Shown: positions 7,179 through 62,276 of the stretch, piece after piece | Layout: each line of letters begins with the position of its first letter | Numbering within the stretch: position 1 is the first letter of the stretch | Origin: Calonectria ilicicola | Taxonomy: Eukaryota; Ascomycota; Sordariomycetes; Hypocreales; Nectriaceae | Reading direction: 5' to 3' | NCBI GenBank assembly: GCA_020809705.1 | Contig: CP085825.1 | Coordinates: 4,402,001-4,466,000, forward strand | DNA: 64,000 nucleotides | The notes under the pieces: model-generated | What the model saw: only the letters and a program-made list of their open reading frames with translations | What the model was told of the DNA's origin: nothing | The model's database searches: none | Translations under genes and position numbers: made by a program

Positions 7179-8621
7179 TTACGTGAATGTGATTTTCTTT
7201 CCCATAAGGCTTTTATACGCATCATCAACGGCCTTTCGTTTCCTTCTTTTCGTCTCTTCATCCTCATCTATCTCCTCTTCCTCGTCAATATCGTCTGGTC
7301 CTGGAATTTGGGGCGTCCAGGCTCGAATCTGCCCGTCCATGTGAGAACTGTAGATGGCACCAACGGAATTCCCTCCTCCCATCACAGGCGCAACTTGTCG
7401 TCCACCACCACCAGCCCCGCGCCATACAATGCTAGTGATTCGGTTTCTTCCCATTTGCCCACCTCGTGACCCAACAGGGTTGGCAGCGCCCGGGCTGCGG
7501 AGACGGGTTATAATGTTTCCATCATGTAGATCAAGAATGAGAATTTCTTGGTCATTGGGCCAAACCAAGAGCTGATTACCAGTTGATAAGCCAGAAGGGG
7601 TCACTAGAAAGCTGACCGTTTTTGCATGCTGGTTTTGAATGAGAGAACCAAAGCTTGCCAGGGTGTTGGCACCAGTGGCCGCATCCCAAACTCGGATTTG
7701 GCGATCTAAACCGGCCGAGATTATGTACCTCCCGTCATCTGTCCATTGCAGGCCATTTACGGCATCATCGTGAGCTTGCGCAGAGGCTCTAAAATGTGGC
7801 ATCTGGTCCCAATCCATACCTGAGGCGATAGAATGGTTAAACTTATGTATAACACCAAGAGAATCCTCTTGATCTAGTTGCGCAATAACACCACCTGCTC
7901 TCCGAATGTCCCATATACGAACTTTCCCATCAGAATGTCCGCTTGCAAGAATATGGTCGTGCCGTGGACTCCATGAAGTCGTCAGGACAGGGCCACCATG
8001 AGCTACTAGAGCCTGGACGGCGGAGCCAGACTTTAGATCGACGAGTCGAACGTTGGAATGCTGGGTAGCAGCTGCGACGAGGAGGTGATCAGCAATAGGG
8101 CTGGTAGAGTGTGAATATATTGTCGCATTCAAATCGAAGTTGGCCGAGAGCGCGCATTGCTGGGTTGACCAGAGCTTCAATTTCTTGTCGTAGGAACTCG
8201 AGAGGAAGGCTTCGGGGTCGAATGGATAGAAGGCAATATGAGTAATCCCATGGGTGTGTCCGGACGCTTGTTGGTCTTGAGCCGATCGCGCAATCATGGC
8301 TACGGGCCGAAACGTATGCGTTTTGTGAGGGTTGCCAGAGGCCTCAAGGTCCCAGACCTTGATGGCGCCCTCGGCACCACCCGACAGCAAGATGCGCCCA
8401 TCGAATTTATCCAGAGCGACGCTGCTTACGCCTGCGCCATGCGCACGTATATTGTGCGCCCGTTCGTTTATGCCCGAGGGATCGGGACGCGCCGCAATAT
8501 CACCATTGAAGCGGTGTTGAGGCGCCGGCGCAAATGATTGGAGAAGTTGTGTCGCAAAAGTTCGAGCAAGGTCCCGGGGACCGAGGTCACCCGTCTCACG
8601 GGCGAGTATACGGGCCTGCAT
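7179..8621 (-). CDS. ERCC8: WD40 protein, CSA/ERCC8 (Ckn1)-like transcription-coupled repair factor
   Basis: A single uninterrupted exon of 480 residues starting at the ATG at 8621. The N-terminus (ARETGDLGPRDLARTFATQL) resembles the short lead helix region of CSA. WD repeats follow, with clear ends GAIKVWDLEA, KKLKLWSTQQ, GKVRIWDIRR, RQIRVWDAAT and GQIRAWTPQ. The C-terminus is acidic then basic (EEEEIDEDEETKRRKRK), probably including a nuclear localisation signal. In animals and fission yeast CSA is the WD40 substrate receptor of a CUL4-DDB1 ubiquitin ligase acting at stalled RNA polymerase II. A glycine-rich insert (RGAGGGG) near residue 405 looks like a loop expansion. The gene shares a 439-bp intergenic region with the divergent RRN10-like gene. 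WD40 identity is certain; the CSA assignment rests on the N-terminus and domain order. Confidence 0.85.
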   Translation of the reverse strand: MQARILARETGDLGPRDLARTFATQLLQSFAPAPQHRFNGDIAARPDPSGINERAHNIRAHGAGVSSVALDKFDGRILLSGGAEGAIKVWDLEASGNPHKTHTFRPVAMIARSAQDQQASGHTHGITHIAFYPFDPEAFLSSSYDKKLKLWSTQQCALSANFDLNATIYSHSTSPIADHLLVAAATQHSNVRLVDLKSGSAVQALVAHGGPVLTTSWSPRHDHILASGHSDGKVRIWDIRRAGGVIAQLDQEDSLGVIHKFNHSIASGMDWDQMPHFRASAQAHDDAVNGLQWTDDGRYIISAGLDRQIRVWDAATGANTLASFGSLIQNQHAKTVSFLVTPSGLSTGNQLLVWPNDQEILILDLHDGNIITRLRSPGAANPVGSRGGQMGRNRITSIVWRGAGGGGRQVAPVMGGGNSVGAIYSSHMDGQIRAWTPQIPGPDDIDEEEEIDEDEETKRRKRKAVDDAYKSLMGKKITFT

Positions 8622-29837: not shown

Positions 29838-32800
29838 TTAAGCCCAAACCTTTCGGAATTTGCTCTCAAAGGTCTCATCAAGTATGACAAAAGCTTTGAG
29901 AACCGTTTCCAACCTTCCCTCTTTCTTAGTTGAACAAGCCGGTGTAGGAATAGTACCTGGGGAACCTGACGGAGCCGTCTCTTCTCCCGACTCTGAATCT
30001 CCATCATCTTCCCAGCTGTCAAGAACTTTAGGACTTGTCTTCTCCAGCTTCTTCATCGCCACATTTGTAGGCTTGACCTGTGATGGGCTTTGGTTTTCCG
30101 GAGTGTTGCTGTCGGTTTCCTCATTTTGCTCCCACTCATCATTCTCGAAATCAAACGGATCCGCCCCCGCACCAGTCAGGCTCTTTAGACTAGTTACAAT
30201 TGTTTTGAGAACGAGAGAAAAGTCTTTGAGGAAAAACCACACATCACCTCCCTTGATCTGGTTATTCTTCTTTAGATCTTCTATGCTGCCGTGCTTGTAG
30301 AAGTCCAAGAGGTAAGCGTTCAACTCCGTGTCCGTATCATGCGGCCAAATCGGAATGTAGGGAATTGCGGACTCTTCTAAAAAGACGCCTCCTCGTACAG
30401 TTGAGCAGAGTTCCTGAATTGTCTCGAATTCGTCCCCAAACCCAGACAACGCTACAAATGGGGACCGGATGGTTGTCGGTGCACACCCAAGGAACCCAGA
30501 GTTAGAAGAATCCAAAGGCCCAACAGTGGTTTGTGAAAATGGCATAGTACGGTCCGGAGTATCCGTGAGGTGCTGGCTGATGTAGGAATAAACGTATTTC
30601 TTAAAGATTGAAAGTGTTTCCTGGTTATGCTGTATAAGCATTTTCTCAGCCTCAGATGGCAGCCGTGGGAGAAAGACAATTGAAGACGCCCGGTGTGCCT
30701 TCTCTTCCAGCTTCTTGGAGCGCTGAACCGGTATCCTGTTGAACAAATGACTGAGTACAAGCATGAGTTCAAGAAGAATATTGTCTGGTGACTTATCCAT
30801 GTCGGCGCACAGGTTGTGAAAGTAGCCTCCCCGAAGCAGAGAATGAAACGCGAATACCGCATTCTCGGTGAAGTACAAGTGCCCTACAAGCCCAGCAAAA
30901 TTCAATGGTGTACCGTCGGCTGCAATGAGATTCTGTCTTCGCAAGTACTCGATAGAGAATCGTAGATGGTGCTTGACAGACATTTCTGCCTCTGGCCCGC
31001 CCAGATACAATCGTGTCTGAGATGTCAGGGCACGAACTGCATTCATTGCGAATTCCGAATTGTACGTCCCATGAAGAAGGCTAAATAATCGGAGTATCAA
31101 AGTGGTTGAGATAGGAAACTGTCCCTTCAGATCGGGAAGCCGCGAGGACATGATTTCATACACGCGGCTTTGCGAAATGCCGTTAAAAACGACGTTTCCG
31201 AGAAGATCGAATCCACGTCGCCCAGCACGACCCGACGCCTGGCGATAGTTCTGGGCTGTGAGAAACACCGAGTCTCCGCTGAACACGACGGTCTTGCAGG
31301 GCATGTTGATTCCCAGAGCAAGCGTCCCAGTGGCAACGACCACTCGAAGATATCCATTGCGAAACATCATTTCAACACTGTCTTGTTTTTAGTCTTTCGA
31401 ACCGGGAGATCATCAGGTCAACTTACATTTGACGATAACGCCGATTCATTCCTGCATGATGCACTCCTAGGCCTCGTTGTAGGGCTTGTATCAAAATTGG
31501 CTTGACTTTGTCCTGGTGCAGCTTGTTGATCATGTCCTCAAATTCTGACTGGGCTAATTTCGTAGTGTCGGCAAAACTGAACTGTGGAAGGGGAGCGTTG
31601 GGATCGAAGCTTTCCCAAGGACTGATTTCGACGCTGGCGGCCTCTCGTGCCAAGTCTAGTTTGCTCATCTTCGGATCGCCGTCCTTGCCAGCTTTGTCTT
31701 GGGCTTGTGGCTTGATTTCCCGAGCATTCAGTTTCTCCTTCTTCCACTGCTCGTAGTTTGAAAGCTTTTTGAGCCAACCAGGATCGGAGTTTTTCCACTC
31801 TCCTTCACTTGATTCCAATTTCTTAAAAATGCGCTCAACCGCTCTCTCGCATTCTTGGCGATCATAGTTGAACACAAGTGCTGGAAGTGCATTTTGGGAG
31901 TGAAGCTCGCACACTAAAAAGAATAGGCTTTTGATTGGGTCCTGTGTCTCGTTGTCTTTGATACTTAAATCTTTCCCTTCTGAAACTTGCGAAAATGGGT
32001 CAAGATTGGCCTGAAGGGTCTTTAGCGATGACTCAGATGTTCTCATTACCTTTTGGAGAACCGTCTTGAGGTCACTCTCCCATTTTACAATGTCCGACTT
32101 GGAGATGGTTTCCGGCAAAACAGATTTCGGGTCCAAATGTGCGACTTCCTTTTGAACCTCTGGACCCAGCCTTTCATTCATGCATTTCCATAAAGTGAAG
32201 CAATCTCGAGACTCTAGGCTTAGATCGTCCAACGTTTCGCGATGACTGGCATTTATTAGCGTCTGTTGTGAGCGTGTCTCTCCTGGAAGCTTACCGGTTG
32301 TCGAGCGCAAGAATAGGATGAATAAACTTGAAATTCGAACTTGGAAGCTCTCCCTCATCCAAACCAGGCACAGGCAACTGGAGTGGTTTTGAGAGCTGTT
32401 TGAATCCCTGATCACGGCGAGGTGGGTGATAAATAAACTTGCGAAGGTCAGAGTACCGTACCCCGTGAACAATCATAGTCATCTTGAAACCCTTCTGGGC
32501 CTGCGACACTTCTAGCCAATGCCGAAACTCTTCGGGGTTCCCCACAGTTGCCGAGAGGGCGATGATAGGACACGGAGCCATGAGCAGAAGCTGCTCCCAA
32601 ACGACGCCATCATCGGATTGCCCAATACAGTGAACTTCATCAAAAATTATTCTCTTGACGCGTCTTGACCAATTACTAGCATGATTCGCGTTTGCGGGCG
32701 ATAGCAGCATGATCTGAAGAATGTGCGGTACCGTTACCAAGATTTGACATTGGCTGGGATTGTTGATGCGATAGTCTCTGGTATGAATCGCCCAAACCGA

Positions 32801-35333
32801 CTTTCCAGGTTTCCCATTATAATTCTTTGAGAATCTAGCTTCGACTTCGGCGGCAATCTGATTTACAAGGGCCTTTGTCGGAGCTACGTATACCAGCACA
32901 CCATCATCACTCTCCTCGAGGACCTTCTTCATGGCGTAGAATGAAATGAATGTTTTACCTGCTGAAGTAGGTGCAACAACCAAAAGACTCTCTTCGGCAT
33001 CAACAGAATCCAGAACCTTCCTCTGCCAAGCATCTGGCTCGAAAGGCACACGAGGATCTGGCTTCGAGTCAAACCGCCGTTCCATGTAAGGACCACCATG
33101 TTCGAGTTGAAGAAGGCGGTGGTTTGGCAAAACACCGGCGGTAGTCTTTAAAGACTCAATATTGAGGCGGAATGGTAGTGGTCTTGATGGTTCCATAATT
33201 GAAATGTCGAGAAGAGGCATGCCGAGATTAGTTGTGATGTCCAAAAGTCCCTTGGCGATTTCCGGCGTAGATGATTCTGATTTCGCAATACACTGAATCA
33301 TGTTCCACATCATCGAGATAAGATAAATACCTGGAAACTTAGTGCAGCCCTCGTTTTATAATATAGAAGACTTGACTAACCTCGTGGAGATCTCTCATCC
33401 ACATTCTTGCGAGTTGCAGCCCAAATTTTACCGAGAACGTGGCACAAGTAAAGTCGGATCTCTGGCTCAAGATACTTGTAGTCATCTTTGGATCGAGTGA
33501 ACAGAAAATCTTCAGCTTTCGAGTACTGCTCAGCCAGGGTCGAGCTGCCTTGAAACTTGGCACATTGCTTGACCCAGAATCGCACAGCGTCACTACGCTT
33601 GGCTAGAACCTTGTGATTTTGTAATTCCAGGGCCGCTTGAATAGCGCTATCTTTCCCCCCTTTCTTGTTTCTGTTCTTTGCACTGTGATTCTGCGTATTA
33701 GTTTTCCCTGTCACTTTTCTTACGCTCAAGGCTGGGCGCTGCTCGTTTCGAGGGCCAACAACGACAGTTTCCCGCTCAAAGATCTTGCCGCGTGAACCTT
33801 GCAGACTTTCTGCATATCGCAAAACTTCTGTCATCAGGTTTTGTTTGAATCTCATTGCCCAAAAACCAGGCTTTGGAGGAATTTTCAAGGAATTGACGGG
33901 CTTGACGTTGTGCCAGTGCCGTATCTCTTGGAACACAACGCTAAGGGCGGAATCCGATGTTTCTTGGACCTCATTGACCTTGACATTTCCCAAAAACTTA
34001 TCAAACACGGGATGACTGAAACTTAGAAGTTCTGGGTTAGGTTCAGTATTCGGCTTGCTTGATCGTGAATGCTGCTGAGAGATGGTGTCAAAGTCTCTCT
34101 CAGAGTGTGCACCATCTCCTTGGACAATATCACACCATAAGCCACGAGCAACTTCAAATATGTCGTTGGGAACTGAGCTCTTGGTGCGGACCTTGTCCAG
34201 GAAAAAGGAGAAGATACGCCCGTCGACTAGGTCGAAAAGATCCCAGTCAAGTCCTTCCTCGGTCTGTCCGTTCTCAACCAAAGCTTGAGACAATTCGGAG
34301 AATTTCTGAAGGAATGAGTTATCTTCGAGAGAGAGATACTTAGATTCGCATCTCCTTTCTTGTACGCTGTATGTTCTCAAAGCCGCCATGTGCAAAAGCA
34401 GAGCAAATACCTGCAACAATGTAGTCTCGTCAGGCTTGTCCGCAGGGTGTTGCTGAAAGATCCCGCGACAAAAAATGACAGCAATCCACTCTCTCATAGA
34501 CACAACCGATGAATCGCTTCTATGGGGTGGTATGCTTTTTAGTATCGCCTTTGACGCAACGGAAAGAGCATGCGGTGGGCAGCGGTCCTGTTGTACACCA
34601 AGGCGATTTGCCGACACCCCAGTTCCGCTCAACAAGTTAACAAACACCTAATCCATATTAGCATCGACTGTATCACACGATGCTCCCTCTAAAAGCCATA
34701 CTTTGGAGGAGTGAATAGCAATGTCATTTATGAGTGCAACATGCTTCCCGCTAGAGACGAATTTCGACATCAGTTGCCTCAAGGGGATCAGACCCTCATC
34801 ATTGGACTCAGATCCAACATGGATCAGAATGAAATGAATAACATGGCTTGCCAGATATTCTTGACAGTCATCACTTTCAAATGAAACAAACTCCAAGATT
34901 CTTGAGGTTATATCAGACTTCGACAGATGTCGAATAAGGACGGCTCTAGCAAGGTGGTATTTGTAGGCGGCGTCACACTTCTCTGGGGGAATACAGACAT
35001 GTTGTATGTCCCGAAAGAAGATGATGTCAAAATTGCACCCTCTCTTCTGAAGCTCATGGAGAAAGCTCTCCACGGCATACACAGCGTGAAGGAGTTGGAA
35101 GCCCTCTGCCCCTTAGTTAGCACCTCTAGATACATACACTGGACTGGATAGCGCAGAAATGTACCTTCAAAATCAACCCGAGACTGCTCAATACAATGCC
35201 GAATGAGCGACTCTCCATGAATAGCAAAAAGCTCACCGCCAGCGAAATCGCCCACGATGTCGATTTTGGTGGTGCGTCGAGAAGCAAACCACTCGAGCAG
35301 CTCTTCCTCTGGAGTCATGTGCTGTTCTGACAT
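29838..35333 (-). CDS. DDX60-like DExD/H-box RNA helicase
   Basis: Six exons, 5' to 3': 35333-35165, 35105-34702, 34647-33381, 33330-32295, 32245-31427 and 31377-29838, summing to 1,745 codons (1,744 residues) in one frame. Intron 2 (34701-34648, GTATGG..TGCTAAT..TTAG) is needed to remove an in-frame TAG. The N-terminal 600 residues lack helicase motifs but resemble the DDX60 N-terminal region ([20 protein letters not shown], then [20 protein letters not shown]). Helicase motifs are complete: APTSAGKT at about 733-740, DEVH at about 844, SAT at about 873, [13 protein letters not shown] before the exon 6 joint, [15 protein letters not shown] and [12 protein letters not shown] at about 1,278-1,289. 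The C-terminal 150 residues are acidic and Ser/Thr-rich. This is superfamily 2, Ski2-related. Mammalian DDX60 is linked to antiviral RNA sensing and decay; the fungal role is unknown. The start is the first ATG of the conserved N-terminus. Confidence 0.9.
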
Positions 35334-36362: not shown

Positions 36363-37949
36363 TCACAGGGTTCCAACCATCAAGCTTTCAAGCATACCCC
36401 CAGTCTGACATGCCACTTGGGCCCTTTCCACCTCGACCCTGACTCTGCGGTGCAGAGTCCTGAATCCTTCATTCAGCTCTGCTGAGCCACCAACAAGCTC
36501 AGCATAGAGGTCAAGCAGGTGGAGGCCAACCTCGACGCAGACGCTGACATATCGAGGGTCGCAAATGTGGCTGCAGACCCACTTGAGGATGGGCTGGATG
36601 CCAATCTCATCGCGCGATTCGAGGGCGTCTCGCAAGGCACTTCGGTGTCGGAGGGCGAGAAGGAGAGTGAGGACATTAAGAGGAGAGTGTTCGGGAGAGT
36701 ACTTGTCAAGAACTTGGTCCAGAGCACGCGCATAACGAGCATGGCGCAGGTCGCTCTGCCACGGCCGCTCCTTTTTCTTGAAGGTGCGGGCCTCATTCGC
36801 AATGACGACGTCAGCCCCTTCGCCGGCCATGTCGAGGCGCTTGGCAGCAGCGACCCTGCGCTTGCGCTTCTTCTTCTTGGCATCATGCGATTCGATTGTG
36901 CCGGCCACAAGCGCGGCCATCTCCTTCTCGCGCTCAGTCTCCCGGTGCGCTTCGAGGCCGGTGAGGCGAGTGCGAACACTAAGGACACCAGACTGCATAC
37001 CGACAGCAAGATGGCGGTCATTGGCATCAATGTCATCGTTTGTAGGAATGACTTTGACACAAAGAACAGGCGATTGATACTTGGTGCTTGAAACTACGTT
37101 CCAGCCAGTTGTCTCAAAAACCTTGACATGACCTTCCAGGCCACCGCTGACAAGTCTTCGCCCATTGGAAGCCAGGCTGAGTGAGGTAACAGTCTTTTGA
37201 TGATTGGTGATCATATGCAGAGGTCGTGCAGCTACCAAATCCAGAACGCTAATAGAGTTCTCTGCGGCAGCCAAAACAGTCGTTCCCGAAGGCATGGACA
37301 GGACATCCTCAATGGGCGCAGCATGTTTGAAAGTCATGACAGCGCTATTGCTTCCTGTCCTAGGGTCCCAGAGCTTCACTGTAGAATCGTAACTTCCAGA
37401 GATAATCATGTTTGACATGGTGCCAGGCATGAAGTTTGCACATCGGACGTAATCGTTGTGGCCAACAAAGGTCGTAGCAGGGTCGTTGCTGGTAAGATCC
37501 CAGAGGCGAACGGTCTTGTCGTCGCTTGCGCTCAGTAGAGTGGTCATCTCAGTGGGTGAGAACTTAGTCGTCCAGACGGGCTGCTTGTGGGTGGTCCAAG
37601 TCTTGAGGATAGCTCTCGAATTCACATCGAAAACTTGCATCCTTCCAGTGTCCTCACCAGCCACCAGGACACGGCCATCCTTCCTGATTTCTCCGCTGCG
37701 CGCAACATCGCCGAAGCGCGTTATGGTCTTGAGCAGCTTGCGGGTCCGGTTCGAGTAGATCTGAATTCGGGTTCCCGTCGTGACAGCAAAGGAGTCGCTG
37801 TTGGAGGAGATGTGGACAATGGGATACGAGGTCGGGGACGTAATGAGCAACTGGTTCTTGAACGTCTTCCAGTAGCGCTGCTCTGCGGTGACGGGCGACG
37901 GTCCCGAGGGCAGCTTGAGCTGTGGGAGAGGGCCCACCTGAGCTGCCAT
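36363..37949 (-). CDS. UTP15: U3 snoRNP-associated WD40 protein Utp15
   Basis: Single exon, 528 residues, start at the ATG at 37949 (MAAQVGPLPQLKL). The order is diagnostic: a short N-terminus with YWKTFKNQLLITSPTSYPI, seven WD-type blades (for example DKTVRLWDLTS, DSTVKLWDPRT, GHVKVFETTG), a basic linker (DAKKKKRKRRVAAAKR), and a C-terminal helical UTP15 domain with YARALDQVLDKYSPEHSPLN followed by LRHRSALRDALESRDE. Utp15 belongs to the t-UTP/UtpA subcomplex of the small-subunit processome in the nucleolus. It is needed for early 18S pre-rRNA processing and for optimal rDNA transcription. Length matches the yeast protein (about 513). No introns or defects seen. Confidence 0.95.
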   Translation of the reverse strand: MAAQVGPLPQLKLPSGPSPVTAEQRYWKTFKNQLLITSPTSYPIVHISSNSDSFAVTTGTRIQIYSNRTRKLLKTITRFGDVARSGEIRKDGRVLVAGEDTGRMQVFDVNSRAILKTWTTHKQPVWTTKFSPTEMTTLLSASDDKTVRLWDLTSNDPATTFVGHNDYVRCANFMPGTMSNMIISGSYDSTVKLWDPRTGSNSAVMTFKHAAPIEDVLSMPSGTTVLAAAENSISVLDLVAARPLHMITNHQKTVTSLSLASNGRRLVSGGLEGHVKVFETTGWNVVSSTKYQSPVLCVKVIPTNDDIDANDRHLAVGMQSGVLSVRTRLTGLEAHRETEREKEMAALVAGTIESHDAKKKKRKRRVAAAKRLDMAGEGADVVIANEARTFKKKERPWQSDLRHARYARALDQVLDKYSPEHSPLNVLTLLLALRHRSALRDALESRDEIGIQPILKWVCSHICDPRYVSVCVEVGLHLLDLYAELVGGSAELNEGFRTLHRRVRVEVERAQVACQTGGMLESLMVGTL

Positions 37950-38414
37950 TGTTGGTGATGGTAATGTGTGATGCTTGTTTGGCTCTCGGTTTGAGGTCAA
38001 CGAGGCTGCTGTAATATTTTTTTTTCTGCGATAAGATTAGGATAGGATGGCTGGCAGCGGAAGTCCACCGCGGGGAACCCATTTTACCCGCTAGTCTATT
38101 TTGGGTTAGTGGGTCATGTACCTATCCTCCAACATACATTCCATCTTCACCTTACATAGGTCGGTACCAAGACTCGGTACAATATTAAATCACCAATTTC
38201 ATCGCATCACATCTTATAAGGAGAGCAAAGAACATCAAATTTAGACAACGACGGATGATTGATTAATCCAGGTTACAAGTAGCCTACCTATTTGTATGCG
38301 ATATGCCCTCCTTCCAATAATGCACTTTCCTATAATCTTGAACGCCAATAAAAACAAGGGCCTTCCATCTAATATACATTTCCACTTCTCTCGTTGATTC
38401 ATTTGTCCATTTCT
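37950..38414. other. Intergenic region, UTP15 promoter and 3' flank of C2 gene
   Basis: 465 bases. The part near 37950 is the UTP15 leader. The rest is AT-rich (ATATTAAATCACC, TTATAAGGAG) with no ORF, consistent with the 3' untranslated region of the neighbouring minus-strand gene. Confidence 0.55.
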
Positions 38415-41400
38415 TCAATAACCTCCTCTACGTCGTGATCTTCCCGTTCCAATATCAATACGTTGCATTTCTTCCATGAGTGCCAGCTCGTTTCCACCCC
38501 CGTTCGCTCCACTCATCAGCGGAAGTGGCACCTTAGCTGGGATGGGAGGTCCAGAGCCATAATAAGGAGCCCGGTTCTCATTTTGGCTATCCCACGTGTT
38601 TGAACGTGGCAAGCCTCGGGTTGGGCTAGTATAAGGATCCTGCCTCCCTTGATAGTTATCCGACGAAATCGGCGCCAGAGGACTGACTCCACCTGGCGAG
38701 TTGCCAGCAGACACCGGGTTTCGCTTCTGAAGGCGAGCCCGCATCCGTGGCTCTTCTGGGGTATAATAAGAATTGACTGCAGATATCGAGTGACGCCCGG
38801 AACGAGGAGTTCTGCGTGTGCTGGGTGGCATAGGTTGAGCTCCGGTGAGAGCCGGCCGAGACCTTGGCTCAGGGGAGGCATCTCTCGCCTTAGGTTCTGG
38901 TTCCGGTGCCCAGGACTCGATAGGCAGGTGATCAGACGGGTCAATTTCCCGTCCATCATAAGTGATGATCTTGTTTGATTCGTTCACAACATCTGGAGAT
39001 GCGCCGGTCCCTTCGTTAGAGACTAAACTGGGATTGAGTGCATCGTAAGAGTCAGGCCCGAATGGAACAGCAGACAATCTTCTAGGCTCCTGTGGGGGCG
39101 GTGCCGGGCTCACAGACTTCCGACGCAGTCTGCGAGTCTCTTGTGGAGGCGGTGCTGGGCTAACGGACTTGCGCCGAATGGTGTGCTGAGGATTGGGGCT
39201 GGTCCGAGGGTTAGGAGATATATCCCCAGACCTAACCAGAGCTTGCTGCTCTGCTCCACCACCATAAGTGAGTGCTCGCCGGTCATAAGGCTGAATGGCG
39301 TAGCTTTGAGAATTATCAGGCGTTTCAGGATAGCCGTGATACGATTCAGTCCGTGGACGTCCTCGTGGGGGCGTCTGAACGCTCTGTGAGCGATGTCGCC
39401 TATCATGGCGACGATCCTCATAAATACGATCTGTTACCTCTTGGGATAGAGCAGGATCAAGTCCAGGAACTAATGCCGCAGGCATGTTGGGCATTCCGTG
39501 ACTAGAAGAGCTCTGAATCTGTCTTGTTTCCAGGTCTGTTCGATGGTTCGAATGGTGGCTCTGGCTGCTGTGAGAGTGATAAGAACCCTGACCTGGGCTG
39601 CGAGAATAGTCGCGGCCATGCGAATTGGAGACAGGGACAATTTGATACGGGTTTGGCTCATGTCCTGGACTACGCGAGTAATCCCGCGAACGAGACGACG
39701 CTTGGACGATTTGATAGGCATTGGGATCATAACCGCCAGGGCTTCGAGAATAGTCCCTACCGTGCGAGTTGTAATCATCCACAGGGCTTCTTGAATAATC
39801 TCGACCACGGGCCTGAGATATCGGAACAATTTGATACTGGTTCGGATCCTGGTAGTCCTGCTGTGGCTGTGATACAGAGTACTCCTCTCGGAATGGAGAC
39901 CCGCCAGGAGATCGGCTCAGGTTGAGAGGAGCTGGGCTGGGGTTGTCAAAGCACATCTCGTCCTGTTGCTGAAGTCTTGATACGCTGTGTCTGTAGTTAT
40001 TCTGGTACCCACTGGGTGCTTCCGGCGCATCCTCCACAGTAGGCTGCATTGAGCGGTAGTGGGGGTCATAGTTGGCATCGTAAGAACTATGTCTTGGAGC
40101 AGAGTCATACTTTTGTATAGCAGTAGAAGAAGTCGTATCGTATTCTCGGAAAGTCGGTCGCCCAGGGTATGTTGGCGTCGAGTGCCTGTGAGCCTCATTC
40201 CTCAAGACGTCGTGTCTCATAGGTTGCGATGACTTTGGTGGTGAGCCATCATAACCGCTTCTAAGCACAAGCTCCTGGCCTCCGCTGTTATGTCTGGATC
40301 GATGCGCCGGTGGTAGGGGAGGACGCTCAGGTTCACGGGAATACTGCCTTGGGTCTTCCAGAGGCGGGGCGTCATACGCATCTTGTGGAGGAGCGTGATG
40401 GCCCCGGTGATCAATCAGCTGTTCCTGGGATTGCGAGTATGCGGGGTTGTAGTCACGCTCGTCATGATGTCTTGGAGACTGCTCAATGGCAAGGGGCATC
40501 GACTGTCGGTAATCACGTTCTTCCTGGTGCCTTGGAGAGGACTCAATGGCAGGAGCGTGCATTGACTGTCGGTATTCACGGTCGTCATGATGTCGTGGGG
40601 ATGGCTCAATAGCAGGGGGAATTGACTGCCGGTATTCACGCTCTTCATGGTGTCGCGGAGATGGCTCAATGGCAGGGGGAGGAGGGGGGTTCGTCGCCTG
40701 CCGAGCTCCCCGCGGGCGCTCACCTCGGGTTGGAGTTGTGTATTCTTGTGGAGCACCGCCATGTGGTGAAGGGGAGGGGTGGTCTGAATGACGGGTTCGA
40801 CGTGAGGGTGGCGTGCTAAACTCAACGGCATGCAATGGCGATTGATTGGAAGAGAAATTTCCCTGTGAAGCCTTTTGGGCATGTGTTCGTGGGGGTGGGG
40901 TGTTTTGCTCAGCTGGAGGGGCCGGAGGAGCACTTGTTGGTGCAGCTGGTACTGCAGCTGGTGGTGCTGGGGCTTCGCCCGTGACTGGGTCAGATGGAAG
41001 AGGACGTCGTTTTACGGGCGTTCGTTGCTTGATGGAGCCATGCTCCTGCTCAGAGACCGGCTGCTTGGGCTTGGGGGCAGCGGGCTTCTCGGGCTTTGGG
41101 CGTGTATCGTAGTATGTGATTTCTATCCTGATCTCGCCGGCATACTTGCCTTTGCAGTTCAGTGTCTGCCAAACATCGTTCTGACCACCACCGGGGATAA
41201 CGATGCTTCGGAGATCAATCCACGACTCGCCAATCAAGTCTGTCTTCTTATCGTCGGTAAAAACGGAGATTTTGAGCTGAAAGTAATCGGGAGAGTCGTG
41301 GACTGTGAATCGCAGTTCCTGGTCCCTATATATCGTCAGCCCGCACTCCAACCAAAGCTCTCGGAGCTCAAGGACAACTCACCATTTTGGTGTCTGTCCA

Positions 41401-43970: not shown

Positions 43971-44780
43971 TTACCAATCACAGCTCTTTGCAAGCAGCTC
44001 TGCAAGAGCTTCCAGGTTCTTCTGATCGACCTCATCAAACCCGTCCAGTACAGCACAGTCAATGTCGATAATCGCCACCACCTTTTTCTCTCCGGCCTGT
44101 TCCGCAACAATGGGCACTACAATCTCACTCTTGCTGTCTCCATCACAAGCAATGTGACCTGGGAAACTGTCGACGTCCCTGATAAGCTGGGTTGTCCCTG
44201 TCTGTGCGGCTGTCCCGCACACTCCACGCCCAAATTGGATAGTCTGACAGGCGACCTTTCCCTGAAAGGGCCCAAGGATGAGCTGGGGCTTCTCAGATGA
44301 CTTGTCCAAAACGTAGAACCCTATAACGTTGAGTGGTTGTCCATGGTTACCAATCTCTCCAAACCCCATGCGGCTGATCACTAACCTGCCCAATTGACAT
44401 CCTTGCTGGGTGCACCCAGCGACTTATAGGCATGCCACAATAGAGAAGCGGAGTTTGCAAGGTTGCTGTTGTTTGGTCAGATTGTTTTTCTTCGGTTTGT
44501 TCAAACCTTGGTTCTTTCTCACCAAACCTGTGCAGAAAGCAATGGCCAATTAGCGAATCAATGGTGCACCATAAAGGGAAAGGGTTCGAACCCAGTTGCG
44601 TTGCCCGTAAAAAAGGCCCTCTGCCTGCATCAAGACCTGCTCGTACGCATCTTCCTTCGTGACGCCGTCGGCGAAGTTGGATGCATCAGCGTGAACCTAT
44701 CTTGCTGTAAGTTTTTTGCTTGAGGCTTGGGTTGACGGCCAAGTCTCATGCGATAACAGCCCCAAGATGATACGTACCAT
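43971..44780 (-). CDS. Free methionine-R-sulfoxide reductase (GAF-domain fRMsr)
   Basis: Five exons: 44780-44778 (only the ATG), 44696-44592, 44527-44523 (5 nt, GTTTG), 44465-44386 and 44320-43971. They total 543 nt, or 180 residues, the same length I recall for yeast fRMsr. The enzyme reduces free Met-R-sulfoxide to methionine with thioredoxin. The GAF domain covers almost the whole protein. Visible are VNWAGFYVLD, LILGPFQGKVACQTIQFGRG, VCGTAA and HIACDGDSKSEIVVPI; the three redox Cys of the family (in VAC, VCG and IAC) are all present. The 5-nt exon is deduced: joining W-codon TGG, GTTTG and C AAC CTT restores the conserved N-W-V-C-N-L block, and both its flanks are good splice sites (GCACAG / GTGAGA). 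No other splice choice I could find keeps the frame. It is divergent from the LETM1-like gene. Confidence 0.88.
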
Positions 44781-45619
44781 CGTTTTCGATTTTTAAAATC
44801 CGATAAACTCTCTAGGCAATGAACACCGATGCTATACAGGTATTGAAGTGGCGCCTGAATATTGTTGTTGATAATTCTAGCTATCAAAGTGTCTAATTTT
44901 TTTTTCTGGTCCCAGATACACTTGCTACCCCATTACTAACAGATATTTCTGCCCCCGCAAAACGGCAGTCCACTATGCCATTTTAGCGGTATTGATGCCA
45001 GCACGCAGAGCGATGCTATGGAAAACCGTCCAGCGAATGACAAGCCCCAGCTGCTTGGCTGAGGAACCTGTCAGCTCGGAGGACAATCCTTGCCCACCTT
45101 GCTGACTGGCGAGCGGGTGGCAGGATTAAATACTCAAGACAAACCAAGGGTTAGCCCAAAATAAAACAGGACAACTGCATCTAGGATCCAGAATAATATT
45201 AGAATAATATTTTAGCACCGTATCTCATTTGTGGATTTGGTCGGATTTTGAGTTTGCTCATCCTAAAACGAGGCATCCTTCATTTAAAGGATCCGAAGCC
45301 CATATTTACTAACCAATAATGCCTGCAAAAATCTCCACGTTTCAAGGTTCTAGACTATTCCTACTGCCAAATTGATTGTCGAGATAGGAAGGAGAGATCA
45401 GTCTCATACGCCCGGCCAATCACCCATTGGACAATTCGCTTGTCGTAGCGGCTGAAGATTGGCCTTGAAAAGATCGGGGTGATCTCCAATCTTAGACACC
45501 ACTCTGGCCATCTCACCTGTCCGAAGTCCGGAGCCACTAATACGACGTGCTGGCAGGAACATCGGCCCCTAACCAGCACTTCACCTCTACCACCAACATC
45601 AACCACACCCACCGATACA
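44781..45619. other. Divergent promoter region, fRMsr / LETM1-like
   Basis: 839 bases between divergent start codons. AT-rich patches with AATAATATTAGAATAATATT at about 45,192-45,211 (a small direct repeat of AGAATAATATT). The last 60 bases are C/A-rich leader. No ORF with support. Confidence 0.55.
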
Positions 45620-46731
45620 ATGAGTTTCCGAATGCCATGGAGATATTGCGCCAACGCGCCGCGTCGACAACTTTATAATCTTAGCAATTGGCCCACGAGC
45701 CTCAGGGTCACCGCCTCGGGCTCGTCACAGCTCTCCGCCATTGGCACACTGCAATCGCGAACCATCCACAATGACGGCCCCAAGACATCAAACCCTCTCG
45801 TTAACCCGCCCGCCGTGTCCCGACCACCTCCCCTGACGCTTCCACGCCGCAAAGACTTCGAATCGACGCCCAAATACTACTTTGAGCTAGGAAAGGGCTA
45901 TGCGAGGTTCTACAAGGATGGAATCAAGGGCGTGTTGGCGAGCGCCAGGCTCCTCCGCGAAAAGCTCAAGAAAACTCCCCGCAACGACCGCCCATCCATT
46001 TTCCGACCCTACCACGTGCCCCAGACCTTTTCTCGAGCCGATTGGGTTCTTCTCTGGCGAGTACGCCACGACTTGATTCGACTGCCGGTGTTTGGAGTGA
46101 TGGCCGTGGTTGCTGGCGAATTTACAGTCCTTCTCGTCGCTTTCGTCGACCACCTAGTGCCCTACCCATGCAGAATACCAAAACAGATATTTTCAGCCTT
46201 GGAGAAGGCTGAGCAGCGTCGAAAGGCGGCGTTTGAGGAGCTAGATGCCAAGCACCCCCACGGCGTGCTCAGCCCCCGCATCACTCAGAAGGTTGCCCGT
46301 TCGCATGCCCTCAAGAGCCTTCATATCAGCGGGGCAATGTGGGATCGACTCGGTTTCACGCCCCCGGGCATGTGGGCAGTCAAGGGCAATCTGCGCATGG
46401 CGTATCTGGAGGGTGACGACAAGAACTTTGTCGAGGATGGAGGTCTGACGGGACTCGAGTACAGCGAGCTGCAGACAGCTTGTACTGAGCGCGGCATCGA
46501 TACCCTCGGAAAGAGCGAGACGGAATTGAGGGCTCGACTGGGCGACTGGCTGCGACTGACGGCGGCTGAGGACATTGTTGAGAGGCGGCGAAGAATGGCG
46601 GTGTTGCTCCTTACCAGGTACGTGCCATGCAACGGCCGGCGTTTGATTGTGGCGCGAAGCTAACCATTGGATCCAGACCCGAAAACTGGCCTCAGAATCG
46701 AGACTTTGGCGTGCCCGAGTGGCATCTGTGA
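45620..46731 (+). CDS. LETM1-like (ribosome-binding domain) mitochondrial inner-membrane protein
   Basis: Exons 45620-46617 and 46677-46731 (59-nt intron, GTACGT donor, GCTAACC branch, TCCAG acceptor, phase 2) give 350 residues. The N-terminus is basic and lacks acidic residues (MSFRMPWRYCANAPRRQL), as expected of a mitochondrial presequence. The LETM1 pattern follows: YFELGKGYARFYKDGIKGV, a conserved block with HDLIRLPVFGVMAVVAGEF leading into one hydrophobic segment and a Pro-rich turn (VPYPCRIPKQ), then a C-terminal SAP/RBD-like helical region with LTGLEYSELQTACTERGIDT and LGDWL. Mdm38/LETM1 proteins act in K+/H+ exchange and bind mitochondrial ribosomes. This member is shorter than Mdm38 and lacks its long coiled-coil tail, so it is a LETM1-like paralogue. 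The tiny last exon ends NRDFGVPEWHL. Confidence 0.82.
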
Positions 46732-49619: not shown

Positions 49620-50802
49620 TTAGTATCGGTCAGTCAGAACCGGGGGCTTGTTGTTGAGAATATCGTCAATCTCCTTGAGAATTTCAGGTGTCAACTTGTC
49701 GACAATGGCAACAGCCTGGATGTTCTCATACACCTGCTCGGGGCTGCTGGCACCGGTAATGGCGCAGCTGACGTTCTGGTTGCTCAGGACCCAGGCGAGG
49801 GCGAGCTGGCTCTGCTTGACGCCAAGCTTCTGGGCAATAGGCTCCAGCTTGTTGACAGTCTGGACAATGCCATCCCACTTCTCCTTGCCGTTGGTCTGCC
49901 ACCAGCCATTGATGTACTCGACAGTGGTCTGGGCGAAGCGCGAGTCGTCGGGAATGCCAGCCTTGTACTTGCCCGAGAGGATACCCTGCTTCATGGGGGA
50001 GAAAACAGTCAGGCCGAGACCGACCTCGCGGTACAAGTTTGCAAACTCCGACTCAACCTTGACTCGGTCAAGCATGTTGTAAGCTGGCTGCTCCATCAGG
50101 GGGCCGATCAGGCCAAGACGATCGGCCACACGCCAAGCCTGGGCGATCTCATCGGCGTTCCATTCTGATGTACCCCAGTAAAAGGCCTTGCCGGTGTCGA
50201 TGATGTGGTTGAACGCGCGAACAATCTCCTCCATGGGAGTCTTGCGGTCAGGTCGGTGGGCGTAGATGAGGTCGACGTACTCGAGACCCAGGCGCTTGAG
50301 GGCAGCGTTAGTACCCTCGACGATGTGCTTTCGCGAAAGACCCTTGTTGTTGACGGGGTTCTTGCCAAAGGCACCACCCCAGTAAATCTATTCAGGCGCG
50401 ATTGTTAACTCATGTTACATGTTAGATCCTGGCCAACACCATTTCTCACCTTGGTGGAGATGACGAGATCGTTGCGGTTCCAGCCAAACTCTCGAATAGC
50501 TTCACCCATGACTACCTCGGACTGGCCCTTGCCGTAGACCTCGGCGCAATCGAAGAAGTTGACACCGCAGTCGTAGGCGGCCTTCATGCACCTGAAGGTG
50601 GCCTCTGTCGGCCATTGTTAGTATGCGCATACAAGTCAATGCCGGCCGCGTGCCGTGCTGGCATCACTCCAGGGAAAAACTTACCCTTATCGACATGGCC
50701 ACCGTATGTGAGCCATCCACCCAAAGCAATGGACGAGACCTGGAGACCAGACTGGCCCAGGAATCGGTAGGTCATCTCGGGGGTACCTTCGGGCTTGGAC
50801 AT
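49620..50802 (-). CDS. AKR6-family aldo-keto reductase (voltage-gated K+ channel beta subunit-like)
   Basis: Exons 50802-50685, 50604-50450 and 50387-49620 (introns of 80 and 62 nt, GT/AG) give 346 residues, the usual length for this family. The TIM-barrel oxidoreductase motifs are intact: MTYRFLGQSGLQVSSIALGG at the start, NFFDCAEVYGKGQSEVVMGE (catalytic Asp and Tyr), LVISTKIYWGG (catalytic Lys at the exon 2/3 joint), YVDLIYAHRPD (catalytic His) and GTSEWNADEIAQAW. NADPH-binding residues are expected in the C-terminal block with CAITGASSPEQVYENI. Such proteins reduce aldehydes and ketones with NADPH; animal relatives serve as Kv-channel beta subunits. In fungi they are soluble reductases of uncertain substrate. 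Neighbours give no pathway hint. Confidence 0.92.
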
Positions 50803-56559: not shown

Positions 56560-58042
56560 ATGGCTTCAAGCTCGTCCAACGTCGTCGGCGTCCACTACAG
56601 GGTCGGCAAGAAGATCGGAGAGGGTTCCTTTGGTGTTATTTTCGAGGGTACCAATCTGTTGAACAATCAGCAGGTGGCCATCAAATTCGTAAGTAACCTT
56701 GGGCGGTTTCAGTCGGTTAATCATCCAGAAGTTTACCTAACCATGACAACAGGAACCTCGAAAGAGCGATGCACCTCAACTTCGAGATGAGTACCGAACC
56801 TACAAGATTCTCGTCGGCTGCCGTAAGGACTCATTGATACGAATCCGAACCGTCTTGTGACTAACATGTGCTTTAGCCGGTATCCCCAATGTATACTACT
56901 TCGGACAGGAAGGTCTGCACAACATCCTCGTCATCGACCTGCTCGGCCCTTCTCTCGAGGATCTCTTTGACCACTGCGGCCGAAGGTTCACCATTAAGAC
57001 TGTCGTGATGGTCGCGAAGCAAATGCTCTCAAGGGTTCAAACAATTCACGAGAAGAATCTCATTTACCGTGACATCAAGCCCGACAACTTCCTTATTGGC
57101 CGACCCGGCACCAAGGCCTCTAGCGTCATTCACGTCGTCGATTTCGGAATGGCCAAGCAATATCGTGATCCTAAGACGAAGCAACATATTCCCTATCGTG
57201 AGCGAAAATCGCTGTCCGGAACTGCTCGATACATGAGTATCAACACCCATCTTGGTCGTGAGCAATCTCGACGAGATGATCTTGAGGCTCTCGGTCACGT
57301 CTTCCTGTATTTCCTCCGAGGCGGCCTCCCTTGGCAGGGATTGAAGGCTGCTACCAACAAGCAGAAGTACGAGAAGATTGGTGAGAAGAAGCAGACCACT
57401 GCTATCAAGGACCTTTGCGAGGGCTTCCCCGAGGAGTTCTCCAAATACCTCACTTACGTCCGAAACCTGGGATTCGAAGATACCCCCGACTACGATTACC
57501 TGCGCGAGCTGTTCACCCAGGCCCTCAAGAACACTGGCGAGGTCGAGGATGGCGAGTACGATTGGATGAAGATCTCGAAGGATTCGGGAAAGGGGTGGGA
57601 CTCGATGAAGAACCACAACGCGTATCTTCACAACCCAAATGTGCGACCCGGCCCTTCGCAGATGGAGCTGCACAGCGGCCACCGCCAAGGGAATACCACC
57701 TCTCACCAACAAGCACAAAACCTCACTGTGGGCCGTTTAAACGCCGCACAACCCCCTCCACCATCTCCGATCAAGCAGATGGGCAAGCAGAGAGATCGGC
57801 CAAGCGCCCCAGGCGCCTTGGCGGCGCAGAGGGGGAACGGAGCTGGGGGTCTCCGCGATATGGCTACCCCAACTGGCTCGACTCAAGCCCAGTTCCAGAA
57901 CAGCGCCCAGAACTTGCCAAACCAGCCGACAACCGCCCAACCGAACCCGGCGACCCAAGCAGCAGCTCAACCCAACGGCCGACCCGCTGAGGCCCAGCCT
58001 AGCGGCTTCCAGAAGCTGATGAAGACGCTTTGCTGTGGTTAG
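56560..58042 (+). CDS. Casein kinase 1, plasma-membrane Yck/CK1-gamma-like type
   Basis: Exons 56560-56688, 56753-56822 and 56877-58042 (introns of 64 and 54 nt, GT/AG) give 454 residues. The kinase domain covers about 12-300: [15 protein letters not shown] glycine loop, VAIKF (Lys42), the catalytic loop with [22 protein letters not shown] and the CK1-specific substitution for the APE motif, [20 protein letters not shown]. The tail (about 300-454) is rich in Gln, Asn, Pro and Ala. It ends [11 protein letters not shown]; the vicinal Cys pair resembles the palmitoylated C-terminus that anchors Yck1/2 at the plasma membrane, here followed by one Gly. Yck-type kinases act in endocytosis, nutrient signalling and polarity. 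The ATG is in a strong GCCGCCATGG context. There is a long upstream leader with a probable 5'UTR intron. Confidence 0.94.
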
Positions 58043-59969: not shown

Positions 59970-60407
59970 TGTGACGGTTCGGGATGAAGGGGTTGGCTTG
60001 CGGTAGGATACCGGGCAGTTTTGCGCAATTGAAGTCCTGGCCGATGTCGAGCTTCGTCCTGCAAAGGTGTGCCGAGAGTGTCGTGTGCGAAGTTGCGAAG
60101 CCGTGCTACAAGCTCCCTGGCATTGGCGGCGACGAAGCTGCCACGTTCTAAAAGCGACCTGTCAGGGGGGCGGGGTCACGTGGCGATAAGACTCGCTCGA
60201 TTCAACCTCTGCGCGTCAACCTAGATGACCTCAAATTTTCGCGTTGAGCAAGCCAACCCGCCGCGACCAAGCGCACCCAACCCGTTAATACCCTGATACC
60301 GTGTCCGAAAAGCTCCATAGACGAACCCTGCGATAATTCTTGATGCCAAATGAGATGAAAGCCGCCATCTAGGCACACCCATCGATAGCAACCCACCGGC
60401 GGCCACC
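59970..60407. other. Shared divergent promoter region, p24 / SWC4
   Basis: 438 bases between divergent start codons. No TATA box seen. A G-run with GGGGGGCGGGGTCACGTGGC at about 60,162 includes the palindromic E-box CACGTG, a possible bHLH site. Confidence 0.55.
60176..60181. promoter_or_regulatory. CACGTG E-box in the p24/SWC4 divergent promoter
   Basis: The palindrome CACGTG lies about midway between the two start codons, next to a GC-rich box. In fungi this is the core site for bHLH factors of the Cbf1/SREBP-like kind. Position is suggestive, function unproven. Confidence 0.4.
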
Positions 60408-62276
60408 ATGACATCCTCTGACGTTCGCGACGTGCTCAACCTCCCAGATGGAGCCTCTGGGCCCCGACCGGCGAAGAAGCAGAAAATTGCAGCACCTCGG
60501 CCAAACCTCAAGGGACTCGCCCGTGAAGTGCACAATCTCGGAGGCGATAACCCGATCGCGATTGTTCCCGAAGTTTCACATTTCAAAAAGCGGCGCTTTG
60601 CAAGCCGGAAACCAGCAGCCCGATGGGAACTACGACCATTCAAAAATTCCGCGCGTGACGACCAAAGTTTGAACCTACAACATTGGCGAAGGAAGGGAGA
60701 CAAGCCGGAGGGCGATTCACAAGATCAAGTATCTGCGACAGACGAGAATGCTCAGCCCAAGAAAGATGCAGAGCTGGAGGACTCTGCTTTTGCCAAATAC
60801 AACGTCCAGGTGTCAGTACCGCAGTATAGCGATACTCAATATCAGCAATCGCTTCAGAACCCCGACTGGACGAAGGGAGAGACGGATTATTTGCTGGAGC
60901 TAGCCAAGGACTTCGACTTGCGGTGGCCGCTCATTTGGGACAGATACGAATGGAATCCGCCGGCCACAAACGGCGAAGCGAATGCTGACGGCAATGAGAG
61001 TAAGGCAATTGTACCGGCAGCGCGGGCTCGCTCAATGGAGGATTTGAAGGCGCGGTACTACGAGGTGGCATCTAAAATGATGGCTCTGCAAAAGCCAGCG
61101 CAGTACATGACACAACCGGAATTCTCACTTCACGAGTTGATGGCGCACTTCAACCCTCAACAAGAACGGTTACGCAAAGAGTTTGCCCTCAATGCATTGA
61201 CTAGGTCACGCGAGGAAGCACGAGAGGAGGAGTCGTTACTACTGGAAATCAAGAGGATCTTGGCCCGCAGCGAACGATTCAACGATGAACGCCGGGAGCT
61301 TTACAACCGCCTTGACTATCCCCGTGCGGATACGGACATCAACGCTTTCAAGTCCTCTGCCGGTCTTCAAAATCTGTTGCAGAACTTAATGAGTGCAGAC
61401 AAGACAAAGAAGCGCAAGTCGTTGATGGCCGCCGAAGGAGCCAGTCCTGCGAACCCTCCAGGTCCCCAAGCAGCAGCAGCGGCAGCAGCCGCCGCCGCTG
61501 CTGCCGCCACTCAGGAGTCTGTCAGTCGGCGGGAGAGCACTGCAGCCTCTACTGGCCATCGCGAACCTCCAACAGCCGCACCAACACCTACTTCCACCAG
61601 CAAGAAGGGCCAACAGGACAAGCCCGAGCGACGGAAACTTACTACACAAGAGGAGCAGGTGTATGGTGTCACACATCACGACCGCCTCGGTTCTGGACCT
61701 ACATTCCGAACTGAAAAGATCAACAAGCTCTTCTCCCACAAGTCAAATCAACAACAGTTGCGCATCACCAATGCACTCAATGAATTGGATGTGCCTAGTA
61801 AGCTAGCCATGCCGACCGCGGCAACGACTCATCAATACGAACTACTTCTTGGTGCGGTGAACAGTCTTCTCGATGCTCGCAAGGTGTCTGACAAGATTGA
61901 CGCCGAGATCAAGGTGGAGCAAGCCAAGAAGGCGGAACGAGAAAAATCACAGGCGCCACCAGAAGCAGAACCCGAAGCAGAAAAGACTGAGGAGAAGAAG
62001 GATGGCGAGGAGAAGGCAACAGCTGATGAGCCAGAGGCAGAGGGGAAGAATGCTGTAGCCGCGTCGACCGCTAAGCCTGCCGGTGAGGAGGCCGCCAAAG
62101 ACTCTACAAAAGATGTCGTTTCCACAACTGAGGCGGTCGAAACACCGGCCAAGGCTGAGGAAGAGGACGGCGGGGCTGATAATGACCGCCCCGGCAGTAG
62201 TGGGAATCCCCATAAGCGCAGCGCAAGTGTTTTAAGCGGCGGAAGCGACAAGAGTGCCAAGCGTCAGAAGAAATAA
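60408..62276 (+). CDS. SWC4: SWR1/NuA4 complex subunit Swc4 (DMAP1 homologue)
   Basis: Single exon, 622 residues; ATG in ACCATG context. Early conserved block: MTSSDVRDVLNLPDGASGPR followed by PAKKQKIAAPRPNLKGLARE. The SANT/Myb-like region includes WTKGETDYLLELAKDFDLRW and PLIWDRYEW, and the DMAP1 region includes MEDLKARYYEVASKMM. A charged helix follows (SREEAREEESLLLEIKRILA). The middle has a run of about 13 Ala (61,470-61,509). A second conserved block has GVTHHDRLGSGPTFRTEKI and ends in KIDAEIKVEQAKKAEREK. The tail is Glu/Ala/Lys-rich with a final basic KRQKK. Swc4 is shared by SWR1 (H2A.Z exchange) and NuA4 (H4 acetylation) and is usually essential. Longer than yeast Swc4 (476) owing to the Ala-rich and acidic parts. 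Confidence 0.94.
   Translation: MTSSDVRDVLNLPDGASGPRPAKKQKIAAPRPNLKGLAREVHNLGGDNPIAIVPEVSHFKKRRFASRKPAARWELRPFKNSARDDQSLNLQHWRRKGDKPEGDSQDQVSATDENAQPKKDAELEDSAFAKYNVQVSVPQYSDTQYQQSLQNPDWTKGETDYLLELAKDFDLRWPLIWDRYEWNPPATNGEANADGNESKAIVPAARARSMEDLKARYYEVASKMMALQKPAQYMTQPEFSLHELMAHFNPQQERLRKEFALNALTRSREEAREEESLLLEIKRILARSERFNDERRELYNRLDYPRADTDINAFKSSAGLQNLLQNLMSADKTKKRKSLMAAEGASPANPPGPQAAAAAAAAAAAAATQESVSRRESTAASTGHREPPTAAPTPTSTSKKGQQDKPERRKLTTQEEQVYGVTHHDRLGSGPTFRTEKINKLFSHKSNQQQLRITNALNELDVPSKLAMPTAATTHQYELLLGAVNSLLDARKVSDKIDAEIKVEQAKKAEREKSQAPPEAEPEAEKTEEKKDGEEKATADEPEAEGKNAVAASTAKPAGEEAAKDSTKDVVSTTEAVETPAKAEEEDGGADNDRPGSSGNPHKRSASVLSGGSDKSAKRQKK

Follow-up and report, generated by a model that had tools for sequence, protein, structure and literature searches.

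A five-nucleotide coding micro-exon predicted in a fungal free methionine-R-sulfoxide reductase gene and apparently shared with related fungi

How is a conserved block of a protein encoded where the exons on either side of it cannot be joined in frame? A preliminary description of the window (the whole 64,000-nucleotide stretch of Calonectria ilicicola DNA analysed here, which sits in a 69.9-Mb genome of 12 contigs) had identified a gene for free methionine-R-sulfoxide reductase (fRMsr) and had proposed that its NWVCNL block requires an exon of five nucleotides, GTTTG, between two short introns of 64 and 57 nt. The gene lies on the minus strand, and the micro-exon (44523–44527; CAAAC on the plus strand) and the introns beside it have the lengths and position claimed. 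Judged from the gene model and from the proteins of other fungi, GTTTG is very probably an internal coding micro-exon, constitutive and essential to the frame of a housekeeping gene, that for fRMsr; that its use is constitutive, we infer.

The gene model comprises five exons and four introns (81, 64, 57 and 65 nt), all of the latter GT-AG, and specifies 180 amino acids before a terminal TAA. Of exon 1, no more than the start codon ATG is coding (44778–44780), a placement based on the model and on the lone M of homologues, and directly after this sole coding content lies the 81-nt intron 1 (44697–44777, GTACGT...GATAG, phase 0). Exon 2 (44592–44696, 105 nt), placed by the model and by enumeration of splice forms, closes in phase 0 with the residues GQRNW. 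Intron 2 (44528–44591, 64 nt) opens with the donor GTTCGA, carries a branch-like CTAAT (44549–44553) whose A lies 22 nt from the intron end, and closes with the acceptor TGCACAG. The micro-exon, third of the five and placed by the model, the enumeration and the shuffles described below, supplies the whole codon for Val37 and bases one and two of that for Cys38. Following it is intron 3 (44466–44522, 57 nt, phase 2), with the donor GTGAGA, a branch-like CTGAC (44476–44480) and the acceptor ACAACAG. Exon 4 (44386–44465, 80 nt) begins C/AAC, the third base of the Cys38 codon followed by Asn39, and ends with the first base of the Gly65 codon. At the junction made by intron 4 (44321–44385, 65 nt, GTTAGT...TATAG, phase 1) is an NWxGFY block, used here as a comparison block, and exon 5 (43971–44320) encodes most of the GAF domain, the conserved Cys89, Cys99 and Cys123, and the stop codon TAA (43971–43973).

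The splice signals originally named for the micro-exon, the acceptor TGCACAG, a branch-like GCTAAT and the donor GTGAGA, are all present. A point absent from that account is the weakness of the intron 2 donor, which has T at +3 and C at +4; Aspergillus fumigatus donors, by figures quoted in the available text of PMC12940212, have A at +3 in 60% and A at +4 in 69%. No donor profile of the species itself emerged from an intron set selected by codon usage in 264 kb (the window and 20 10-kb stretches of contig C1): with the margin set at 0, GT-AG ends did no better than control dinucleotides, giving 9 introns against 7 and 7 for two control pairs.

The assignment of the gene has held up: its product aligns end to end both with fungal fRMsr and with the yeast protein YKL069W. 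With protein P0001 of Mariannaea sp. PMI_226, a genus placed by taxonomy look-up in the Nectriaceae, Hypocreales, the 180-residue product is 88% identical with 100% of the query covered, and the closest relatives among the best 120 proteins listed are this Mariannaea (88%) and Thelonectria olida (86%). YKL069W (PDB 1f5m) aligned over residues 3–178 with an E-value of 4.6e-66, and the GAF_2 domain matched with 36.3 bits against a cut-off of 28.6; no NCBIfam model matched the 180-residue protein at E 0.001. Full-length similarity to yeast fRMsr together with a GAF domain supports a predicted free methionine-R-sulfoxide reductase. Cys89, Cys99 and Cys123 align with the yeast cysteines counted as 91, 101 and 125, which we take to be the conserved cysteines with a catalytic role; Cys38, completed by the micro-exon, is not among these three. 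A genome search with P0001 reported, among the best candidates scored, only three pieces of this same locus, and the only other GAF_2 match reported among the best candidates scored lies in an open frame of 1,536 amino acids on contig C9.

Neighbouring genes were assigned by Pfam, for which 18 of 23 open frames of at least 200 codons were searched. On the minus strand are a WD40 protein (7182–8621), a DEAD-box helicase (32294–33355), UTP15 (36366–38036) and an aldo/keto reductase (49623–50387), and on the plus strand a LETM1-like protein (45449–46660), a protein kinase (56861–58039) and a DAMP1-like SANT protein (60354–62273); a minus-strand open frame of 987 codons (38418–41378) had no Pfam match at E 0.001. 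The same 264 kb (contig C1 stretches and window) hold only 29 non-overlapping open frames of at least 1,200 nt, and this paucity of long frames may reflect intron-rich or gene-poor sequence in the 70-Mb genome.

The enumeration of splice forms between exons 2 and 4 admitted donors at 44636 or downstream of it and acceptors as far as 12 nt inside exon 4; single introns had to be 30 nt or longer and paired introns 40 nt or longer, the pairs having GT or GC donors and AG acceptors. Fourteen two-intron forms keep the frame, four of them through GTTTG, and one of these (44592/44527–44523/44465) yields NWVCNL; it is the sole form enumerated that rebuilds the block, as had been claimed. The other three GTTTG-using forms have different first donors and leave the block damaged. 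With any boundary allowed, 734 single-intron forms in the range keep the frame without a stop, nine with GC-AG (two) or AT-AC (seven) ends and none with GT-AG; the claim that no phase-2 donor joins the preceding exon to the next is right for GT-AG introns in the range enumerated. NW(V/I/A)CNL appears in none of the 734, and the two GC-AG introns hold the frame while removing conserved residues. The longer versions tested do run into a stop, after 49 amino acids with intron 2 retained, 38 with intron 3 retained and 49 with both. Skipping the micro-exon shifts the frame and stops the protein at 49 amino acids, and the skipped form is therefore no second useful isoform. GTTTG is accordingly internal, within a 30-nt limit for micro-exons at 5 nt, and flanked on both sides by GT-AG introns, and the reading frame and the conserved protein depend on it.

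The frequency with which such an arrangement arises by chance was estimated from dinucleotide shuffles of the 126-nt gap with its ends fixed. It proved rare: a V-C-encoding AG/GTNTG/GT flanked on both sides by 40 nt or more arose in 4 of 20,000 shuffles, and the count was 30 of 20,000 for a looser version and zero for one with better splice signals. Of 4,000 shuffles of the gap, 7 produced some block-restoring micro-exon no longer than 30 nt. Random 126-nt pieces of the window contained a V-C-encoding AG/GTNTG/GT with the same flanks in 21 of 20,000 cases.

Homologues were drawn from three protein searches, one with the reconstructed protein and two with probes composed to reach other fungi; the best 120 of nearly 8,000 matches in each gave 237 distinct proteins. 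All were parsed but P0013, which lacks the NW and is itself abnormal at the site. Two residues are expected between W36 and N39, and among the matches listed 181/236 have two and 55/236 another number. Wrong lengths occur in 55/211 of the annotated listed proteins (ncbi, nr or uniref sources) versus 0/25 of the unannotated ones (lgn, jgi or ena only; Fisher p = 0.0018). It had been predicted that gene finders would miss the micro-exon, and many public models of relatives indeed fail at this very place. The comparison block at the intron 4 junction, at which relatives may or may not have an intron, is intact in 237/237 listed homologues. The remaining 156/211 annotated listed models, of the right length, either include the micro-exon or lack one or both introns.

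At the site, the 25 unannotated listed homologues, from other fungi, have V-C or I-C in 24 cases and V-A in one; V-C stands in 155/236 of all the listed homologues parsed. For the 25 unannotated homologues the longest contig measures between 0.9 and 5.0 kb in all but one case, in which it is 17.5 kb, and their proteins cross all four junctions, from which we infer that many are probably cDNA; some may come from genes without these introns. Scans for orthologous fungal DNA added nothing, a protein-guided scan of viral contigs giving 20 pattern stretches with none confirmed, and a scan of bacterial and archaeal genomes giving eight loci, all bacterial by title. An earlier criterion for a normal site, V, I or A followed by C (75/237 outside), was replaced by the length criterion because the seven listed Exophiala and Capronia models all have V-A, which may be genuine; the length criterion in turn scores as right six two-residue forms (VS in four, SS in one, VF in one) that may also be wrong. 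The seven (P0193, P0195, P0198, P0210, P0220, P0234 and P0236) read NW-VA-NT where most listed fungi have VC, so that the cysteine of the micro-exon may be replaceable.

The residues found in place of the expected two resemble the translation of splice sites, with a phase-0 donor following W and a phase-2 acceptor preceding N. Reading past the NW into a phase-0 donor GTNNGN would give V and then an NGN-coded residue, and in the window the donor GTT CGA corresponds to V-R and the acceptor AG/C to S. Among the matches listed, 31 of the 55 anomalies start with V and have at least three residues, four consist of V alone and 20 do not start with V. After the V of those 31 comes R, S, G, C or W in 29, the exceptions being P0018 (V-T) and P0021 (V-Y); with V-C set aside, since there C may be genuine, the next residue is R, S, G or W in 24/26 (p = 2e-15) and, taking the first record per genus, in 14/16 genera (p = 1e-8). 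The 20 without V offer no test of the donor, although they are compatible with a joining of the donor after NW to an incorrect acceptor. At the other end, an AG/C read through into AAC would place S before N. The last residue is S in 24/51 listed anomalies of at least three residues (first record per genus, 9/25, p = 2e-5) and not S in 27/51, and none of the 51 ends in a residue incompatible with NNC (M, W, Q, K or E; p = 2e-5, by genus p = 0.005). All p-values given here assume independence among proteins or genera, an assumption that related organisms violate.

A single intron cannot start in phase 0 and end in phase 2, and the two signatures together would thus imply two introns with 5 nt, or 5 nt plus a multiple of three, between them; the two residues in most listed relatives point to 5 nt. 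Counted by genus, both signatures occur in Fusarium, Metarhizium, Trichoderma and Clonostachys, all of which we take to be Hypocreales. Closely similar records disagree at the same place. The contig-derived P0030 has NWVCNL where the Trichoderma harzianum model P0077 has NWAASNL, the two being identical at 169/178 columns. Two models of Ascochyta lentis differ at 1/175 positions, C versus S at the micro-exon site, and two of Lasiodiplodia theobromae differ, besides the start, only by eight extra residues inserted there. The pairs from Nemania serpens and Purpureocillium lilacinum also disagree at the site, with some differences elsewhere.

By listed names, the anomalous models among the matches listed span 28 genera. 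Taxonomy look-ups place Xylona in the Xylonomycetes, Diplodia in the Dothideomycetes and Cadophora in the Leotiomycetes; the class placement of the remaining anomalous genera is our assumption. The occurrence of anomalies across genera of several classes suggests a micro-exon older than these classes, and the same tiny exon appears to be present in related fungi, where gene finders often err. Apart from Fusarium, Metarhizium, Trichoderma and Clonostachys, the models show just one of the two ends, and some lineage may possibly have a single intron at the site; P0156 of Colletotrichum tofieldiae, for example, has 29 extra residues followed by VCNL.

The micro-exon site is not the sole troubled place in the gene. 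The VHADA-like motif was found in 231 of the 237 homologues among the matches listed, and in 193 of the 231 it follows a lone M; in the other 38/231 something else precedes VHADA or PHADA, in several of them an extended start in which the M is retained. Gene models of fRMsr may commonly go wrong at this second place as well, the junction that follows the initiating ATG. In several listed homologues Q stands just before VHADA or PHADA, as expected from a CAG acceptor read through.

How might an exon of this size be spliced? The short introns are likely to be recognised across themselves (intron definition), in which case a 5-nt exon would need no recognition as an exon and its length would be irrelevant. 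The acceptor TGCACAG of intron 2 and the donor GTGAGA of intron 3 are only five bases apart, a distance at which the factors on them would collide, and for that reason the two introns are probably removed one at a time. Inclusion would be all or nothing, with skipping or retention leading to a premature stop and presumably to mRNA decay. Removal of intron 2 leaves the junction TGG/GTTTGG, at which a new GT is available; this second GT, if used as a donor, would skip the micro-exon.

That junction invites a broader proposal, that the common ancestor of several Pezizomycotina classes already had the micro-exon and that its descendants have retained it as a splicing switch. Retention of the Val codon would make the exon start with GT, removal of intron 2 would then regenerate a donor, and use of the regenerated or the true donor would give either an early-stop transcript or a working redox enzyme. 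We regard this proposal as doubtful. Very unlikely, in our judgement, is the replacement of the two introns by a single intron with unusual boundaries, leaving the species with a protein in which V-C is missing or altered. The frame-keeping forms with free boundaries, including the nine with GC-AG or AT-AC ends, give it room, and some annotated relatives are modelled in this way; yet none of those forms restores the block, the GC-AG ones delete conserved residues, and two residues stand at the site in 25/25 unannotated listed homologues, from other fungi.

Hardly credible is a reading of the 126 nt as a spliceosomal twin intron (stwintron), in which one intron lies inside a splice signal of another, the nested introns are excised in turn and the 5 nt are a removed remnant. 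Stwintrons are reported in Hypoxylaceae and Aspergillus in the portions of the literature available, and those described in the available text of PMC6616335 resemble the present case in having adjacent short introns whose ordered removal is perhaps needed; the GT left at the junction after intron 2 removal could serve as the donor for the second step. Nested introns of that kind, in contrast, leave no coding remnant or other exon sequence between them, whereas here the 5 nt are needed for V-C and for the frame, their loss would bring the stop at 49 amino acids, and V-C is the form found in most of the parsed listed relatives. Just as hard to credit is gene decay, with the odd structure as its lesion. 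The weak donor of intron 2 would fit it, but all five exons are intact and their 180-residue product is 88% identical to the Mariannaea protein, the P0001 search found only this locus among the best candidates scored, and a private lesion leaves unexplained why trouble recurs at the same place in annotated models of 28 genera.

Read as a constitutive coding exon, the fRMsr micro-exon joins a known class of ultra-short coding exons, in which it stands out for how widely it seems to occur and how it affects annotation. The titles and abstract openings listed from the open-licence literature contained no report of a micro-exon in fungal fRMsr, and nothing combining fRMsr, fungi and introns was found in that literature. 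The following comparisons apply to the available portions of the sources named. Closest is the 1-nt exon of Fusarium CYP621A P450 genes (PMC12940212), deduced by out-of-phase logic and supported by SRA reads. In both cases the phases of the neighbouring exons cannot be joined, the gap is more than twice the usual intron (the source quotes a median of 56 nt for F. graminearum, and the gap here, at 126 nt, is over twice that), and an ultra-short exon restores a conserved motif; nearly all public models of CYP621A are wrong at its exon, and the host fungi are probably of the same family, Nectriaceae. The cases differ in exon length (1 nt versus 5 nt) and in evidence, SRA reads there and sequence here. 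They differ also in the gene concerned, CYP621A being a P450 reported from Fusarium, whereas fRMsr is a redox enzyme of housekeeping type whose micro-exon has left signs across several classes.

Plants have conserved, misannotated micro-exons of up to 15 nt, including 5-nt and 1-nt examples (PMC8831610), which are likewise ultra-short, coding and often missed by annotation, and old, as the fRMsr exon appears to be, but which were demonstrated by RNA-seq and in plants, as opposed to a fungus with short introns. The 20-nt micro-exon of the Trichoderma transcription factor Xlr2 (PMC11121469) shares with the present one a filamentous ascomycete host, omission from gene models and a length that is not a multiple of three, but acts as a glucose-regulated switch. 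Exons down to 6 bp in P450 genes of Phanerochaete chrysosporium (PMC1184071) are similarly very short coding exons between small fungal introns; they belong to a basidiomycete and are spread across a multigene family, whereas the fRMsr site is one position, compared over many genera.

If this account is true, about a quarter of the annotated listed models (55/211, from the best matches of three lists) are wrong at one site, which gives gene finders and read mappers a concrete case to be tested on. That wrong models carry what resemble translated splice sites suggests a cheap hunt for hidden micro-exons from protein databases alone. The locus would also offer a natural system in which the spliceosome of a short-intron organism meets two splice sites five bases apart, and one ultra-short exon would have persisted in a housekeeping gene across distant fungi.
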